This document shows, in pieces, positions 19,066 through 26,988 of a DNA stretch of 64,000 nucleotides. This stretch comes from Pseudacidovorax intermedius (GTDB taxonomy: Bacteria; Pseudomonadota; Gammaproteobacteria; Burkholderiales; Burkholderiaceae_C). Below the pieces are notes generated by a model. The model worked only from the letters and a program-made list of their open reading frames with translations. It ran no database searches and was not told where the DNA came from. Each line of letters begins with the position of its first letter. Position 1 is the first letter of the stretch. The position numbers and the translations under genes are program-made. The DNA lies in contig NZ_QQAV01000014.1 of the NCBI RefSeq assembly GCF_003350475.1, positions 62,001 to 126,000 of the forward strand, in the 5' to 3' direction.

Positions 19066-20250
<1,185 letters not shown>

Positions 20251-20326
20251 CAAGGGGTTGGAGAGAGGGGCGGCCGCCGCCGGCACCCGTTGCACCTCTG
20301 GAGTGCGGCGGCCCCCTCTCCCCGGG

Positions 20327-20347
20327 CCTCTCCCGCGAGGGGAGAGG
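20327..20347 (-). repeat. palindromic dispersed repeat, right of the insertion element
   Basis: CCTCTCCC-GCGAG-GGGAGAGG forms an 8-bp stem. It is the inverted partner of the palindrome at 19019-19038. It lies just 3' of the DUF3455 gene stop and could also act as a transcript-end hairpin, although no T-run follows on either strand. Confidence 0.65.
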
Positions 20348-20365
20348 GAGCAAGACCCTGCCGCC

Positions 20366-20914
20366 TTACATCGCCGGCCTGTAGAAGATGTAGTCCGCCT
20401 GGTAGTTGACGACCTGCTTCTGGCCCAGGCTGGCCTGACCGCAAGGCAGCATGGGGGCGACGCCGCCCTTGGTGGCCACGCGCTGGATGTAGCTCACGCC
20501 CTGCATGGCGCCCATGCCCATGGCCGGGTTGGCCTTGACCAACTGCAGCGGGATGTTGCCGGCGCCGCCCGGCGCGACCGCGACCTGGGTGGCGGTGACC
20601 TTGGAGCCGTCCATGCTCTCCCAGGTGGCCGGCGGGCCGTAATAGCGGCCGATGGCCTTGCCGCTGCGGTCCATCAGGCGCGCATCGGGGCCGACGAAGA
20701 ACCACTCGTACTGGCCTGCCATGTCGGCCTTGGCGCGGCATTCGTAGGTGATGGTGCCGGCGCCCACGGTCTCGAGCGCGACGCGCTGGCCGGCGGGCAC
20801 CTGGACGGGGGCGGGCAGGCCGGCCTGCGAGTACGGGGCCGGCATGGGCGCGGTGGCACAGGCGGACAACAGGACGGCGGCGGCCACGGTGGCCAGGGGG
20901 GCGGTCATGCGCAT
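20366..20914 (-). CDS. DUF3455 lipoprotein
   Basis: A 182-aa exported lipoprotein of unknown function. Seen: a short signal peptide ending in the lipobox LSAC (Cys19), a Pro-rich linker, then a globular domain with TYECRAKADMAGQYEWFFVGP, GRYYGPPATWESMDGS and a C-terminal cysteine in MLPCGQASLGQ; this pattern fits DUF3455. Two Cys in the mature domain could form a disulfide. AAAGGAG precedes the ATG at 20914. It is divergent from the ECF sigma gene, and its upstream region holds the same promoter pair as the sigma and fasciclin genes, so I infer it belongs to that regulon. Confidence 0.8.
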   Translation of the reverse strand: MRMTAPLATVAAAVLLSACATAPMPAPYSQAGLPAPVQVPAGQRVALETVGAGTITYECRAKADMAGQYEWFFVGPDARLMDRSGKAIGRYYGPPATWESMDGSKVTATQVAVAPGGAGNIPLQLVKANPAMGMGAMQGVSYIQRVATKGGVAPMLPCGQASLGQKQVVNYQADYIFYRPAM

Positions 20915-21010
20915 GGAATGCTCCTTTCGATGGGCAACAACGGGTTGAGGTTCGGGGTGGCAGTCGGCGGTCGCCCTCCGCGACCTCTCCTTGCTGCCTG
21001 CCCCGTTCGA

Positions 21011-21038
21011 CTTACGGCCCCGTTCATGAACCGGATGC
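21011..21038 (-). promoter_or_regulatory. putative ECF-sigma promoter of the DUF3455 gene
   Basis: On the minus strand: GCATCC (21038-21033), 16 bases, CGTAAG (21016-21011). The element order and 16-base spacing equal those before the sigma gene and the fasciclin gene. It would give a leader of about 90 bases before the DUF3455 ATG. Confidence 0.6.
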
Positions 21039-21088
21039 ATACCCGGCGAAAGTTGAAGGACTTGTGAATTCATCGCCGCCCACCGCGC

Positions 21089-21116
21089 GCATCCGGCAGC
21101 CGGGAACGCGCGTACC
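21089..21116 (+). promoter_or_regulatory. putative autoregulatory ECF-sigma promoter
   Basis: GCATCC (21089-21094), 16 bases, CGTACC (21111-21116), about 35 bases before the chosen sigma ATG at 21151. Its position supports that start over the upstream GTG at 21064, which would lie 5' of the promoter. Confidence 0.6.
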
Positions 21117-21150
21117 CACCAGATGGCCGCCGCTCCCGCACAATGTCCCG

Positions 21151-21729
21151 ATGCCTTCCGCCACGACGCCCGACGACGAGCTGCTGGGTCTGCTCGATCG
21201 TGTCGCCCGCCGCGACGCCTCCGCCCTCCAGGCGCTGTACGAACGCACATCGTCCCGGCTCTTCGGCCTCGCGATGCGCGTGGTTCGGCAGCACGAATGG
21301 GCCGAAGACGTACTGCAGGAGGCCTTCCTCACCATCTGGCGTTCGGCACCCGACTACCGCGCGACGCTGAGCCCGCCGATGGCCTGGATGTCGCTGATCG
21401 TGCGCAGCCGCGCCCTCGACCTGCTGCGCCGCCAGACGAGCCAGGGCGGCGACGTGACGCAGGAGTTCAGCGAGACGCTGGCCGACACCCTGCCCGCGTC
21501 CGAGCCCGGCCCGCAGGAGCTGGCCGATGCCAGCGAGCAGGCCTGGCTGCTGCACCAGTGCCTGCAGCAGCTGCCCAACGCGCAGCGCGAGGCGCTGTCG
21601 CTGGCCTACCTGCGCGACCTGAGCCACAGCGAACTGGCCACGCGCCTGGCGCAGCCGCTGGGCACCATCAAGACCTGGATCCGGCGCGGGCTGGACAAGC
21701 TGCGCGTCTGCATGGAGCAGGCGGCATGA
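21151..21729 (+). CDS. ECF RNA polymerase sigma factor, SigK-like
   Basis: A 192-aa ECF (group IV) sigma factor. Region 2: ALYERTSSRLFGLAMRVV then WAEDVLQEAFLTIWRSAPDY, with -10 recognition in the following helix (RSRALDLLRRQ). Region 4: LQQLPNAQREALSLAYLRDLS and HSELATRLAQPLGTIKTWIR form the helix-turn-helix that reads the -35. ECF factors of the SigK/ECF19 type pair with an RskA anti-sigma factor, and that is the next gene, 43 bases downstream. Start chosen at 21151 because the candidate promoter overlaps the longer reading; there is little Shine-Dalgarno. Likely autoregulated from 21089-21116. Confidence 0.9.
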   Translation: MPSATTPDDELLGLLDRVARRDASALQALYERTSSRLFGLAMRVVRQHEWAEDVLQEAFLTIWRSAPDYRATLSPPMAWMSLIVRSRALDLLRRQTSQGGDVTQEFSETLADTLPASEPGPQELADASEQAWLLHQCLQQLPNAQREALSLAYLRDLSHSELATRLAQPLGTIKTWIRRGLDKLRVCMEQAA

Positions 21730-21772
21730 CGCGGCCCCGTCCTTCCACCGCCACCGGCCCGAGGAGACTCGC

Positions 21773-22531
21773 ATGAACATCGCCGCCAATGCCCGCCTGC
21801 TGGCCCTGCTGTCGGCCGCCCATGCCCTGGGCACCCTGCGCGGCGGCGCCCGCCGGCGCTTCGAGGCCATCGCGCGCGAACAGCCCGCCGTGCGCGCCAG
21901 TGCCCTGCTGTGGCGCGAGCGGCTGACGGGCTTCGTCGAACTCGCGCCCGCGGTGAACCCGCCCGCCGCGGTGTGGACGCGCATCCGCAACCTGGTGGAC
22001 GCCGACCTGCAGGAGGCCCGCCTGGCCGAGCAGAGGGCGGCGCCGCCGGCACCGACGTCGCCGGCGCGAACGACGGGCTGGTGGGGAAGCCTGGCGATAT
22101 GGCGCGGCGCCTCGGCCGCTGGCCTGGCGGCCACGGTGCTGGCCGGGGTGATCGGCCTGCAGTTCTGGCAGCAGGCGCGCGAGGCACAGCAGGTGAAGTA
22201 CGTGGCGGTGCTGAACGACGACCGTTCGGCCGCATCGATGCTGGTGACCTTCGATGCGAAGCACCGTCAGCTCACGCTGCAGCGGGTGGGCGACTTCAAC
22301 GTGGCGCCCGACCGCTCGCTTCAGCTGTGGGCCTTGCCGCCGGGGCGCACGCCACAGTCGCTGGGGGTGGTGGACTCGCCCGAAGGCATGCGCCTGGCGG
22401 CCAGTGCGCAGGTGCTGAAGCAGGCGCCGGCGCTTGCCGTGAGTCTGGAGCCCAAGGGTGGCGTGCCAGGTGACCGCGGGCCGACGGGGCCGGTGCTGTT
22501 CCATGGCGCGCTGATCGAGAAGACGCTGTGA
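21773..22531 (+). CDS. membrane anti-sigma factor, RskA-like
   Basis: A 252-aa single-pass inner-membrane protein. The N-terminal cytoplasmic domain (about 1-85, ALLSAAHALGTLRGGARRRF and WRERLTGFVELAP) would hold the sigma factor. One membrane helix lies at about 108-130 (ASAAGLAATVLAGVIGLQFW). The periplasmic C-terminal part carries RskA hallmarks: KYVAVLNDDRSAASMLVTFD, SLQLWALPPGRTPQSLGVV and a terminal GPTGPVLFHG. No zinc-binding HxxxCxxC is present, in line with the RskA rather than the ZAS class. Release would normally need regulated proteolysis. A strong GAGGAG precedes the ATG; it is co-transcribed with the sigma gene. Confidence 0.87.
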   Translation: MNIAANARLLALLSAAHALGTLRGGARRRFEAIAREQPAVRASALLWRERLTGFVELAPAVNPPAAVWTRIRNLVDADLQEARLAEQRAAPPAPTSPARTTGWWGSLAIWRGASAAGLAATVLAGVIGLQFWQQAREAQQVKYVAVLNDDRSAASMLVTFDAKHRQLTLQRVGDFNVAPDRSLQLWALPPGRTPQSLGVVDSPEGMRLAASAQVLKQAPALAVSLEPKGGVPGDRGPTGPVLFHGALIEKTL

Positions 22532-22632
22532 TCGGGTTTGTCACGCGCCTTTGAGCGGGTTTGCTTCGAGCGGGTGTGCTGCTCGACGCCTGCGCGGGTG
22601 TTGTGTGGTGCTCGTGCGGCCGCGCGATGTCC

Positions 22633-22750
22633 GTGCAACTCCGAGTGGTGCCCGTATGACCACCCGACGACTGCGCAATTCCGAGTGCTGTCGATGCCAC
22701 CACCCGACCGCCCGCGCAATTTCGAGTGCTGGCCGTGCGACCGCTGCGCC
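22633..22750 (+). repeat. degenerate tandem repeat, three units of about 40 bases
   Basis: Three units share the core GCAAYTYCGAGTGSTG, with the CGAGTG core at about 22642, 22682 and 22723 (period 40-41). Units are diverged by about 20-25 percent. The third unit runs into the left arm of the long inverted repeat. Confidence 0.65.
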
Positions 22751-22911
22751 ACTAACCGGCAGAGGGCACCGGCATGCGCGCTCCCGGTGCACGCTCGCGC
22801 TGACCGGCTTGTTGCACGAGAGGGGTGCTCGCTCTCCACCGACGCGCCTTGCGCACTGCACGGCGCCGCGAATGGCACCTCCGCACGCACACCGGCACCC
22901 TCCGCCTCGAC
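22745..22911 (+). repeat. long inverted repeat, left arm
   Basis: About 165 bases whose reverse complement recurs at 23218-23381 with roughly 85-90 percent identity by eye. Shared blocks include GCTCCCGGTGCACGCTCGCG, CTGACCGGCTTGTTGCAC and CGGCGCCGCGAATGGCACCT. Confidence 0.85.
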
Positions 22912-23003
22912 GCTGCGCGCGAGCCCTCCATCTTTGCGGCCCTGGGCCACGAGGGCACTACAACGAGACAACGAGACCACAAGGCCATACCGCCACACCG
23001 CAA

Positions 23004-23030
23004 GCCATAGAGCCATAGAGCCATAGAGCC
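23004..23030 (+). repeat. 8-base tandem repeat
   Basis: GCCATAGA occurs three times in a row plus a partial fourth copy, in the spacer between the arms of the long inverted repeat. Confidence 0.8.
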
Positions 23031-23068
23031 CGGGGGGCATGGAGCAACGCAGGCCGATCCACCCCAGT

Positions 23069-23092
23069 CCGTTCGGGCTGAGCCTGTCGAAG
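23069..23092 (+). repeat. dispersed GGGCTGAGCCTGTCGAAG repeat, plus orientation
   Basis: One of five copies seen in the window. It forms an inverted pair with 23152-23175, about 60 bases away, giving a REPIN-like arrangement. Confidence 0.75.
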
Positions 23093-23151
23093 CCCCGCCC
23101 CCAGGGTTGCACCGCGTCGGGCCGGGCTTTCACGCCGCGCGCCGCCTCGCC

Positions 23152-23175
23152 CTTCGACAGGCTCAGGGCGAACGG
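23152..23175 (-). repeat. dispersed repeat, minus orientation
   Basis: CTTCGACAGGCTCAGGGCG, the inverted partner of the copy at 23069-23092. Confidence 0.75.
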
Positions 23176-23217
23176 ATTTTGGGGCCGGGGGGCGGAACCC
23201 GGCCGACCAGGCACATG

Positions 23218-23381
23218 GTCGAGGTGGAGGATGACGGTGTGCGTGCGGAGGTGCCATTCGCGGCGCCGTGCAGTGCGGTAGGCGCGTCGATGGAGAGCGA
23301 GCACCCGCGCTGTGCAACAAGCCGGTCAGCGCGAGCGTGCACCGGGAGCACGCATGCCGGCGTCCTCCGCCGGTTAGCGGC
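23218..23381 (-). repeat. long inverted repeat, right arm
   Basis: Reverse-complement partner of 22745-22911; the two arms are separated by about 305 bases. Confidence 0.85.
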
Positions 23382-23425
23382 GCGGCCGTCGTGCCCCATC
23401 CACCGACGCAAGCGCAAGCCAACGC

Positions 23426-23495
23426 CTCAGCTCAGCTCAGCTCAGCTCAGCTCAGCTCAGCTCAGCTCAGCTCAGCTCAGCTCAGCTCAGCTCAG
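23426..23495 (+). repeat. pentanucleotide tract (CTCAG)14
   Basis: Fourteen perfect tandem copies of CTCAG, 70 bases. Pentanucleotide runs of this length are prone to polymerase slippage. The tract ends about 135 bases before the candidate fasciclin promoter. Confidence 0.97.
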
Positions 23496-23503
23496 CTGAG
23501 CGA

Positions 23504-23543
23504 CAGCACAGCACAGCACAGCACAGCACAGCACAGCACAGCA
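23504..23543 (+). repeat. pentanucleotide tract (CAGCA)8
   Basis: Eight perfect copies of CAGCA, only eight bases after the CTCAG tract. The two units differ by base changes, so one may have seeded the other. Confidence 0.95.
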
Positions 23544-23631
23544 CAACCCCCACGAGCATGCGCCAAGGAGCCGCCCTCCTACGCAAAAGAACGCGCGCCG
23601 GATGCATTCCCCGACACCCCGCAGGCCGATG

Positions 23632-23659
23632 CCATCCAGACTCTGCACAGGCCCGTATC
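23632..23659 (+). promoter_or_regulatory. putative ECF-sigma promoter of the fasciclin gene
   Basis: CCATCC (23632-23637), 16 bases, CGTATC (23654-23659), about 50 bases before the fasciclin ATG. It matches the pairs before the sigma and DUF3455 genes in both elements and spacing. Confidence 0.6.
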
Positions 23660-23708
23660 TGGAGAGCCTGCCGCATATCCGGCGGTACAACAGCCCAAGG
23701 AGCCTTGC

Positions 23709-24275
23709 ATGACTTTCTCGAAGAAGACCACCCGCATCCTCGCCGCCACCCTCACCGCCTTCGCACTCGGCGGTGCCGCCATCGGCGCATCGGCCCAGGT
23801 GATGGTGGGTGGCGCGCCCATGTACGCCAACAAGGACATCATCGACAACGCCGTCAACTCCAAGGACCACACCACGCTGGTGGCCGCCGTCAAGGCCGCC
23901 GGCCTGGTCGACACGCTCAAGGGCCCGGGCCCCTTCACCGTCTTCGCGCCCACCAACGCGGCCTTCGCGGCCCTGCCCGCCGGCACCGTCGACACGCTGC
24001 TCAAGCCCGAGAACAAGGGCCAGCTGACGACCATCCTGACCTACCACGTCGTGCCCGGCAAGGTCGACTCGGCCGCGCTGGTCAAGATGATCGACGACGG
24101 CAAGGGCCAGGCCATGCTCAAGACCGTGGCCGGCGGCAGCCTCAAGGCCACGCGCAGCGGCAGCACCGTGAAGATCACCGACGAGAAGGGCGGCTCGGCC
24201 GACGTGACCATCGCCGACGTCTACCAGTCCAACGGCGTGATCCACGTCGTCGACAAGGTCCTGCTGCCCAAGTAA
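23709..24275 (+). CDS. secreted fasciclin (FAS1) domain protein
   Basis: A 188-aa exported protein with a Sec signal peptide (KKTTRILAATLTAFALGG, cleavage after ASA near residue 29) and one FAS1 domain (about 45-187): HTTLVAAVKAAGLVDTLKG, the H1 box GPFTVFAPTNAAFAALP, YHVVPGKVDSAAL, and the H2-like GVIHVVDKVLLPK. FAS1 domains mediate adhesion or surface interactions. AAGGAG precedes the ATG. A terminator follows. In mycobacteria SigK-RskA controls the FAS1 proteins MPT70/MPT83; the same trio here, with a matching promoter motif, suggests the equivalent circuit. Confidence 0.93.
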   Translation: MTFSKKTTRILAATLTAFALGGAAIGASAQVMVGGAPMYANKDIIDNAVNSKDHTTLVAAVKAAGLVDTLKGPGPFTVFAPTNAAFAALPAGTVDTLLKPENKGQLTTILTYHVVPGKVDSAALVKMIDDGKGQAMLKTVAGGSLKATRSGSTVKITDEKGGSADVTIADVYQSNGVIHVVDKVLLPK

Positions 24276-24407
24276 CGAAAGCGTCGAACGGTCCGTTACC
24301 TTTGCGTGCGGACCGTCAGGTGCCACTCAGGGCACCCCGACATACTTCGTTCTCGGCAGTCCGATCTTCTCCGACTCTTGCTTCCCCTCCACACCCGGAC
24401 TGTCTTG

Positions 24408-24439
24408 GGGCCCGCTTTACGGCGGGCCCTTTTTCTTTT
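24408..24439 (+). terminator. rho-independent terminator after the fasciclin gene
   Basis: GGGCCCGC - TTTACG - GCGGGCCC, an 8-bp GC stem followed by TTTTTCTTTT. On the minus strand there is no T-run, so it serves only the fasciclin transcript. Confidence 0.92.
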
Positions 24440-24453
24440 GTGCGTCCGTGCCT

Positions 24454-26988
24454 TCAGGCCAGCCCCTGCCACCGGCCTTCGGCAAGGCGCTGCAGGGTGG
24501 GGCCTTCGAAGCGCCACAGATGCAGCCAGCCGTTGGCCAGCAGGTCGCGCACCACGGCATGCCCGGCGATCACCGCATCGATGGCGGCCTGCGGCGCATC
24601 GATGACCACGGTGAGCCGCAGTGGCTCATGCACCCAGCGCCGGCCATCGTGCAGCGACTGACGCGCGAGGCCGATGCGCAGGTCGCCGCCATTGCCCTCG
24701 AACACCCCCAGCGTGCCACCCACCACGTTGTGCAGCAGCTTGTTGCCACTGCCCAGCCGCACGGGATCGCAGGTCGACGCGTGGTACTGCCAGTTGATCC
24801 AGTGCGTGACCAGCATGGGCGCGGTCATCAGCTGAGTCAGCCACTCGCCTTGCGGGTCCTGCGCGGCGTCGTAGTCGTGCAGGAAGGCACGCCCGCCCAG
24901 GTTCACGTTCTGGCTGCGATGGCGTGGCGCGATCAGGAAGGCGGCATTGCCCGCAAGACCCCATTCCGGACGCGTCTGCGCCCCGTCGTTGGCGCGGCGG
25001 CGCAGCTGACGATGCAGCACATCCGCCGGCGCCGTCGGGTCCAGGCCCAGGCGCGGCGCGCGCTCGCGGCGCACCTGGTCGGCGGCGGCCTCGACGACGG
25101 GCTGCAGCCGGTCCCACCGGGTGCGGGCGTCGGGCGAGAGCCGGTCGAGGTCGAAGCCTTCGATCTCGTCGGTGGCGGTGTTGTGCAGCGCGGCCACGAA
25201 CACGGTGGCTGCGGGCACCTCGATGCCCTGCGCCTTCAGGCCTTCGCGCACGGCTGCATCGTTGAGCAGCCCCGCCAGGCTGCGCGCATTGACTTCGCCC
25301 GTCTGGCCGCAGCAGGCACCACAGTCCAGCGCGGCCGCATGCGCGTTGTTGGCCGACTGGCTGCCATGGCCGACCAATAGCACCAAGGGCGCGAGCCCCC
25401 GCACGAGGCCCATGGACTGCAGCACGCGCGCCGCCAGCGTCACGCGCGCCTCGTCATCCAGGCCGAGCAACTGCGGCCGGCACACCGACCGGTAGCGCGC
25501 GGGCAGGCCGTCCAGATCGTCGCGCGCGCGGTCCTGCACGCCAGGGCGCAGCCAGCGGCCCAGCCGGCCCAGGTAGCCCAGGCCCGCGGCCTCGACGAAG
25601 GAGAAGGCCGCGCCCGGCCAGCGGCTGGCGGCATGCCACTGGTCGCCCAGCGCGAAGCGATGCTGGCGGGCCTGTTCGGCCTGCCGCTGCAGCTTCGCCG
25701 CTGCGGCAGCGTCGCGGGCATCGGCCGGTACCAGGACATCGCCCACCGTCACGGCGGGCGCCAGGAGCCCGGGCAACTGCGGCCGCTGCGCGGCGGTGCC
25801 CAGCGGCGTGTACGCGAGCGGCAGGCCGAAGAAGCCGGCCACGCCCAGGGTCTGCATGCCGGGGCAGGCCGCTTCCAGCGCGCGGCGCAGGGGCTCGCTG
25901 CGCACGTCGATGCAGAAGGCGGCCTGTACCTCGGGCGTCGGCACCGCAGGCGACGACGCACGGCCGGCCAGCGACGCTGCGAGGCCACGCTGGTAACCGG
26001 CCTCCAGGGCCACCTGCCAGACCTCGTCCACACGCAGCGCCTGCTCGGCATGCGCCAGTACCTCCGGCGCACGGCCCCACTCGCGCTGCACGGTCGCGAA
26101 GGCCTGCCGGGCGGCGAGATCGTCCTTGCAGTCCAGCAGCAGCGCGCCCCAGGCCAGCCGGATGGCCAGCAACTCGCGCAGGTGCGGGTCCTCTCGGCCC
26201 GCCAGCCGGGCCTGCCAGCCCAGGTAGGCGCACCACGACGCCCAGCCATTGACGGTGAGCAGCACCGACTCCAGGTAGTCGGCCCACACGGCCGGCGGCA
26301 GGCCCAGGCGCTCGATCACCCAGTGCTCGGCCTCGCGCGCCGTCGGCGGCAGGGCGTCGATGCTGCGGCCGATGTGCGGCAGGCCCATGAGCAGGCCGAT
26401 GCCGTGGTCGTGCTGCAGCGTCTCGCGCCAAAAGGCGTAGAGGCCCTGCTTGCGCGCCGGCTGCCAGTCGGCCTGGTGCTGGTCGAACCAGGCGGCGCAG
26501 GTCTGGCTGACCTGGTGGGTGATGGCCTGCCGCCAGGTCAGCCGCGTGTGCCGCTGCGGGTCGTTGTCGAGCACGTCGATCAGCAGCGGCAGCGGCTGCA
26601 CCGGCAGGGGCCGCGCCAGCGCGGCCACGCAGGCCTCGGGCGTGAGTTCCGCTTCATGCAACTGCTGCAGGGCCTGCTGCAGGTCGGCGGCCGTGATGCG
26701 GCCTTCGGCCCAGGCCTGCGCCTGCCGCTCGCGCGGCGGAAAGACTTGGATGCCGGCCAGCACGGCCATGCGCGCGGCCACCCGGCGCACCGGCATGCCG
26801 ATGCGCGACCAGTGCGGGTTGACGGCGATGGCACTGTCCAGCGGCCAGGCGGGGGCGATGGCCTCGCAGGCGCGGCGGCAGGCGGCGTGGATCCGGTCGG
26901 CCTGCAGGCCGTCGGGATGGGGCCAAGCCGCGGCCTCGGTGGGCGCCGAGGCGGAGGCCGGGCGCGTAGGGTTCAGGACATCCGTCAT
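24454..26988 (-). CDS. dabA: inorganic carbon transporter subunit DabA (DUF2309)
   Basis: An 844-aa cytoplasmic-face subunit that, with DabB, powers uptake of CO2/bicarbonate by a carbonic-anhydrase-like, ion-gradient-driven mechanism. Candidate zinc and catalytic residues by family knowledge: Cys and Asp in AFCIDVRSEPLRRALE (about 357), His in LVGHGSQSANN (about 540) and Cys in LDCGACCGQTG (about 558). No membrane helices are evident. GGAGAAC precedes the ATG at 26988. It follows dabB by 34 bases on the minus strand; a diverged LysR gene upstream of dabB is the likely regulator. Confidence 0.92.
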   Translation of the reverse strand: MTDVLNPTRPASASAPTEAAAWPHPDGLQADRIHAACRRACEAIAPAWPLDSAIAVNPHWSRIGMPVRRVAARMAVLAGIQVFPPRERQAQAWAEGRITAADLQQALQQLHEAELTPEACVAALARPLPVQPLPLLIDVLDNDPQRHTRLTWRQAITHQVSQTCAAWFDQHQADWQPARKQGLYAFWRETLQHDHGIGLLMGLPHIGRSIDALPPTAREAEHWVIERLGLPPAVWADYLESVLLTVNGWASWCAYLGWQARLAGREDPHLRELLAIRLAWGALLLDCKDDLAARQAFATVQREWGRAPEVLAHAEQALRVDEVWQVALEAGYQRGLAASLAGRASSPAVPTPEVQAAFCIDVRSEPLRRALEAACPGMQTLGVAGFFGLPLAYTPLGTAAQRPQLPGLLAPAVTVGDVLVPADARDAAAAAKLQRQAEQARQHRFALGDQWHAASRWPGAAFSFVEAAGLGYLGRLGRWLRPGVQDRARDDLDGLPARYRSVCRPQLLGLDDEARVTLAARVLQSMGLVRGLAPLVLLVGHGSQSANNAHAAALDCGACCGQTGEVNARSLAGLLNDAAVREGLKAQGIEVPAATVFVAALHNTATDEIEGFDLDRLSPDARTRWDRLQPVVEAAADQVRRERAPRLGLDPTAPADVLHRQLRRRANDGAQTRPEWGLAGNAAFLIAPRHRSQNVNLGGRAFLHDYDAAQDPQGEWLTQLMTAPMLVTHWINWQYHASTCDPVRLGSGNKLLHNVVGGTLGVFEGNGGDLRIGLARQSLHDGRRWVHEPLRLTVVIDAPQAAIDAVIAGHAVVRDLLANGWLHLWRFEGPTLQRLAEGRWQGLA

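Follow-up and report, generated by a model that had tools for sequence, protein, structure and literature searches.

Recurrent promoter-like motif at a SigK-RskA-type sigma factor locus of Pseudacidovorax intermedius

A stretch of 64,000 nucleotides from the 5.98-Mb genome of Pseudacidovorax intermedius (G000; contig NZ_QQAV01000014.1, positions 62,001 to 126,000, hereafter the window) was analysed around a gene for an extracytoplasmic function (ECF) sigma factor, its adjoining anti-sigma gene rskA, a divergent DUF3455 gene and a downstream fasciclin gene (Table 1). The motif SCATCC-N16-CGTA occurred four times in the window against 0.12 expected, with a maximum of 2 in 100 shuffles and none reaching 4, and all four copies fell within this sigma locus. 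The preliminary description of this DNA had reported one pair of boxes before each of the sigma, DUF3455 and fasciclin genes. All three pairs were exact in position, with a spacer of 16 bases each and the CGTA box 36 bases from the sigma start codon (ATG 21151), 51 from that of fasciclin (ATG 23709) and 98 from that of DUF3455 (ATG 20914); a fourth copy, on the minus strand at 23605-23580 (site 3), had been overlooked.

Table 1. Features at the sigma locus, numbered from the first base of the window
Feature	Position	Strand	Basis or remark
IS110-family transposase gene near the DUF3455 gene	19066-20208	-	Pfam, on 19066-20100
DUF3455 protein with a lipobox-like LLSAC signal, encoded divergently from sigma	20366-20914	-	PF11937, 119 bits, E 3e-34; N-terminus inspected
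Site 1, promoter-like GCATCC-N16-CGTA for DUF3455	21013-21038	-	-35 at 21033-21038, -10 at 21013-21016
Site 2, promoter-like GCATCC-N16-CGTA for sigma-rskA, predicted autoregulation	21089-21114	+	
SigK-like ECF sigma factor, 192 aa	21151-21729	+	PF04542 and PF08281 above cut-off; 4nqw_A
RskA-type anti-sigma factor	21773-22531	+	PF10099 (RskA_C), 80.9 bits against a cut-off of 29.4
Inverted repeat, 181 nt, left arm	22738-22918		rskA-fasciclin gap; arms 88% complementary
Inverted repeat, right arm	23211-23391		Pairs with 22738-22918
Pentanucleotide arrays, CAGCT and CAGCA types	23426-23551		rskA-fasciclin gap
Site 3, promoter-like GCATCC-N16-CGTA in reverse orientation, facing the 3' end of rskA	23580-23605	-	
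Site 4, promoter-like CCATCC-N16-CGTA for fasciclin	23632-23657	+	
Fasciclin-domain protein, 188 aa, putatively secreted	23709-24275	+	PF02469, 125.6 bits; Sec-type signal by eye
Terminator-like hairpin 3' of the fasciclin gene	24407-24430	+	

The sigma protein combined sigma-70 regions 2 and 4 in a short chain, as defines an ECF sigma factor. Its best match among solved chains was SigK (4nqw_A, E 1.5e-27), followed by RpoE (7e-17), and both SigK cysteines (133 and 183 in Mycobacterium tuberculosis) were aligned in the comparison with 4nqw_A; two such cysteines are described as typical of SigK families and important there (PMC7509140). The best NCBIfam model was likewise SigK (NF007228), at 139.8 bits under a cut-off of 226, and the protein is therefore a SigK relative and not a member of the modelled SigK family itself. 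An RskA_C gene adjoined the sigma gene, as for SigK of ECF18/19, and its product had a single hydrophobic stretch at about residues 113-131 by hydropathy; comparison of the anti-sigma factor with solved sequences gave no match. The arrangement of ECF11 (RpoE-ChrR) was absent here, since the partner carried RskA_C and ChrR lay at another locus. Within the host genome, the sole RskA_C and the sole fasciclin match were both at the window locus. The pair very probably represents a SigK-RskA regulon in the Comamonadaceae, a known kind of system whose target families are apparently new. Pseudacidovorax accounted for five of the seven named loci with a relative of the window sigma.

All four sites recurred in corresponding places in seven of seven close loci (six from Pseudacidovorax, the window included, and one from a Variovorax paradoxus plasmid). 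Over these loci, 36 of 40 box columns were invariant, compared with 6 of 60 spacer columns. The invariance of the boxes was partly by construction, as the sites had been found by pattern, and a plain alignment of the genus also placed them correspondingly. Box variation was confined to one position per site, being C or A at sites 1-3 (GAATCC in one locus at site 1 and in two at site 2) and the first base at site 4 (GCATCC in one locus).

The footprint extended through a family sample of 200 genomes (118 with RskA and 82 without), drawn evenly and not independent of one another. A plus-strand N16 site preceded 15 of 18 orthologous sigma genes (52-77% identity) and none of 11 paralogous ones (35-44% identity). 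These 29 sigma genes came from the best 30 RskA_C loci of a longer list, with starts set by hand; the remaining locus (L053) was left out because the sigma match there set in at residue 74 and no start could be located, and its only plus-strand N16 match was CGATCC, far upstream. Counting it as a miss gives 15/19. Among fasciclin genes of the window's 405-base class, the site was present in 21 of 26 (those among the matches listed with a 405-base domain match, the window's own gene excluded), and two more had a 17-base spacer; mononucleotide shuffles gave a mean of 0.3 and a maximum of 3 (n=200). The other fasciclin class had the site before none of 30 genes. Together with its conservation at all seven close loci, the site thus marks a candidate promoter before fasciclin. 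For DUF4331 genes the count was 26 of 30, own gene included, and for DUF3455 genes 29 of 64 (17/30, own included, and 12/34). The DUF3455 count covered 64 of about 106 listed matches and used slightly differing patterns, a single pattern giving 30/64; L117, whose contig ends early with 567 bases upstream, was scored as a miss, and the L207 site lay 214 bases before the domain.

When 4+4 dyads were ranked without bias, ATCC-N16-CGTA came first, in 70 of 118 upstream regions against 0.42 expected, and the same dyad marked the same gene families also where they were unlinked to the sigma locus. It also stood before a fasciclin-sigma-antisigma set in Pantoea (L217) and a sigma-antisigma pair in Thiothrix. 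From 71 sites the consensus T-G-[AC]-A-T-C-C-[AG]-N14-G-C-G-T-A was obtained, in which the boxes were partly fixed by the search and the flanking T, R and G had not been constrained. The S-CATCC-N16-CGTA form proposed earlier as the sigma recognition sequence was thus borne out by footprinting in kind and proved too narrow in detail, because it left out the preceding T and the alternation of C and A at the second base; TGMATCCR-N14-GCGTA is the better description. The sequences establish where the sites lie, how they are spaced, that they are conserved and which gene families they mark. Footprinting in the genus and in the family lent strong support to the four-gene local regulon proposed at the outset, made up of the sigma, anti-sigma, DUF3455 and fasciclin genes.

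Taking these comparisons together, we consider it about 90% probable that the SigK-type ECF sigma factor of this locus reads the two boxes as -35 and -10 elements, and that its targets are switched on together from TGMATCCR-N14-GCGTA promoters. The same paired boxes might instead form an operator for a DNA-binding regulator, a reading that we find barely credible, as the fixed orientation toward start codons, the 16-base spacing and the presence of a site before the sigma's own gene all fit ECF promoters. Paralogous operons of the type DUF3455-sigma-rskA (e.g., L163, L169, L177 and L179) also spoke against an operator: they carried TGCATCC at the same spacing from a GGTAGT-like -10, so that the -35 is kept and the -10 is changed. 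This pattern was seen in four of the five operons read, out of seven, and in 14 of 64 DUF3455 loci, three of which also matched CGTA.

Several results weighed against assigning these promoters to the window sigma, or against the motif as its marker. Three of the 18 orthologous sigma genes and 35 of the 64 DUF3455 loci lacked the site, and no N16 site was found at the sigma loci of Caballeronia, Paracoccus, Gordonia and Methylobacterium. Seven of the 11 paralogues had DUF3455 directly upstream of sigma, which makes a site before the sigma gene less expected and the paralogue control weaker. The DUF4331 plus-strand site persisted in four of four genomes without RskA, and a site before prkA in the window genome was not conserved. 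The scan of the whole genome that the preliminary description had suggested gave a weak and mixed outcome: the strict motif had 20 matches against 7 for the reversed control, yet 12 of the 20 were inside called genes, 7 were intergenic and 1 had no called gene (gene calls by our own codon model). With spacers of 15-17 bases there were 37 matches (17 of them for N15 and N17), fewer than the 69 of the reversed control, which is at odds with the fixed-gap figure of 7. The wider SMATCC-N15-SCGTA had 17 matches against 5 in the control. Since most strict matches were intragenic and the controls conflicted, the strict motif is a poor predictor of the regulon across the genome and is not specific alone; it was dropped for that use. 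Local clustering and conservation carry the case, and the genome count does not. Among further candidate sites were those at a low-molecular-weight phosphatase gene (L005) and a gene for a small secreted protein (L064).

The consensus was denser in genomes with RskA, at 886 sites in 535 Mb (1.66 per Mb, n=118), than in those without, at 326 in 312 Mb (1.04 per Mb, n=82; p 1e-7), while the reversed control was alike between the two groups (155 and 107). The excess, about 0.6 per Mb, would correspond to a handful of promoters in each genome. Chance is understated by the reversed control, as genomes without RskA still had 1.04 consensus sites per Mb when the reversed motif had 0.34, which is a further point on the unfavorable side. 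RskA was present in 84 of 91 genomes with DUF3455 and in 60 of 65 with DUF4331. In the window genome the DUF4331 gene lay on another contig (L028:3393-4886, contig C1) with a site some 70 bases upstream of its start, and this unlinked gene probably belongs to the regulon. Predicted targets with support in this genome comprise the sigma-rskA operon and the genes for DUF3455, fasciclin and DUF4331. In relatives, an extra plus-strand site followed rskA in 5 of 19 orthologous loci (L036, L039, L061, L058 and L033). Three genomes from two genera had it before DUF3034-like and globin-like genes, where a Pfam check of the downstream genes returned two DUF3034 and one globin; an MbnB/TglH-type gene was downstream in L058, and no gene was called in L033. 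The prkA gene (contig C2) was rejected as a target, as a plus-strand N16 site lay within 450 bases of only 1 of 29 other prkA genes, where it read CGATCC. In one genome the sigma gene and prkA were about 1.5 kb apart (L280 and L034; G039:C25), with no site within 450 bases upstream of prkA. The literature searched yielded no published form of the motif, the ECF group logos in PMC3817407 being unreadable, and no paper naming DUF4331, alone or with a sigma factor.

The sites could also be real ECF promoters that are read additionally or instead by another ECF sigma factor. One candidate in the window genome was the sigma factor on contig C15, whose partner was ChrR (TIGR02451). A flavin adenine dinucleotide (FAD) oxidoreductase gene divergent from it (L063) was preceded by GAATCC-N16-CGTA (G000:C15:3892-3917), and ATCC-N16-CGTA was present at this oxidoreductase promoter in seven of seven cases, comprising the window genome and six relatives of 66-71% identity, three of them in genomes without RskA; among more distant relatives it was found in 2 of 23. 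The ATCC-N16-CGTA core is hence not unique to the window sigma, which adds to the points against it, and the persistence of the DUF4331 site in genomes without RskA is of the same tenor. The -35 boxes differed, however, with ATCCAA at all seven ChrR-linked sites and ATCC[AG]N at the regulon sites. Site density tracked RskA, and the orthologous sigma gene itself is among those with a site in front. On this evidence a reading of the sites by another sigma factor, in addition or instead, is improbable, and the oxidoreductase gene, at first considered a target, was reassigned to the adjoining ECF-ChrR pair.

We infer that the SigK-type sigma factor reads the sites, that RskA inhibits it and that the input is an envelope signal. 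In the resting state the membrane RskA-type anti-sigma factor would hold the sigma factor, and an envelope signal would free it. Freed sigma would then guide RNA polymerase to TGMATCCR-N14-GCGTA promoters, firing its own operon in a positive feedback together with the DUF3455 lipoprotein and fasciclin genes, and elsewhere the DUF4331 gene and perhaps genes behind DUF4331. Site 3 would probably start a reverse transcript toward rskA.

What site 3 does was considered along two lines. It stood back-to-back with the fasciclin promoter, at a distance from -35 to -35 of 25-26 bases in seven of seven loci. In a P. intermedius locus (L025), where the gap between rskA and fasciclin was about 160 bases, and in the Variovorax locus, its -10 was only 30 and 33 bases, respectively, from the rskA stop codon, so that a transcript from it would go antisense into rskA. 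Site 3 may thus be a working promoter whose antisense RNA into rskA, and sigma, tunes the ratio of sigma to anti-sigma, a reading that we hold tentatively at a little under even odds. The presence of the site in all seven loci with a diverged spacer favored it, as did the closeness to rskA in those two loci. No open reading frame was common to the four loci examined in the site 3 region, and an Rfam scan of 20000-25000 gave no match. In the window, where the gap holds the inverted repeat and the arrays, and in four relatives, however, 361-1048 bases separated site 3 from rskA, and 18 orthologous loci had no equivalent in the 1.2 kb downstream of rskA, nor had the linked locus L146. Site 3 might alternatively make no useful RNA and compete with the promoter of fasciclin, 26 bases distant, or be a tolerated relic, which we likewise rate just short of an even chance. 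The spacing favored this, the -35 gap of sites 3 and 4 being fixed at 25-26 bases while that of sites 1 and 2 varied from 31 to 50, but both boxes of site 3 were preserved, which a relic would not need. A still broader proposal, in which the backward promoter supplies a self-made antisense RNA shifting the sigma/anti-sigma balance and one motif governs a family-wide envelope regulon of DUF3455, DUF4331 and, in some genera, DUF3034-globin genes, appears rather unlikely on present sequence comparisons. An active site 3 would give the sigma switch a built-in antisense branch, an unusual feature.

Delftia belongs to the same family as the window host. In Delftia acidovorans, a fasciclin gene was reported as strongly upregulated in root-attached cells, and two DUF3455 genes likewise on soybean roots between days 2 and 7 (PMC7725335); the system described here offers a candidate regulator for that pattern. 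Elsewhere, the mycobacterial fasciclin genes mpk83 and mpk70 were described as raised by light (PMC9861118), and the Rhodobacter sphaeroides fasciclin gene RSP_1409 as rising under photooxidative stress (PMC7074977). By analogy, these light, photooxidative and root findings in other bacteria give hints at the signal. The motif would serve as a signature that ties poorly known envelope families to one signaling pathway.

Among known systems, mycobacterial SigK-RskA resembled the window pair in both cysteines and in RskA_C, and would, by the sites predicted here, resemble it in fasciclin targets with sigma-dependent promoters and in the autoregulation described for M. tuberculosis (PMC7509140, PMC9861118). 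It differed in that the window sigma is moderately similar to it (E 1.5e-27) and in that DUF3455 and DUF4331 are marked here. RskA is reported to be able to activate SigK as well (PMC7509140). The SigK-RskA of Yersinia enterocolitica is, as here, a Gram-negative pair, the likeness being one of genes; PMC7509140 places it in ECF19 and M. tuberculosis SigK in ECF18, and PMC7406223 assigns the anti-sigma factor of the latter to group 19. R. sphaeroides RpoE-ChrR compares through the ATCC-N16-CGTA core at the ChrR-linked promoter of the window genome and through the R. sphaeroides fasciclin gene that rises under photooxidative stress, but that system has a ChrR anti-sigma factor, ATCCAA at -35 and a location on another contig in the window genome. 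Promoter models for ECF subgroups followed the same logic as ours, deriving a group motif from autoregulatory promoters before sigma genes (PMC3817407).

Beyond the family, Gordonia was tried as an actinobacterial yardstick and set aside, as it had neither an annotated fasciclin neighbor nor an N16 site. Linkage of sigma, anti-sigma and fasciclin genes recurred in Pantoea (L217), Paracoccus (L218) and Methylobacterium (L221), and in Paracoccus the neighbors included genes for an FAD oxidoreductase, a DUF1365 protein and a cyclopropane synthase.

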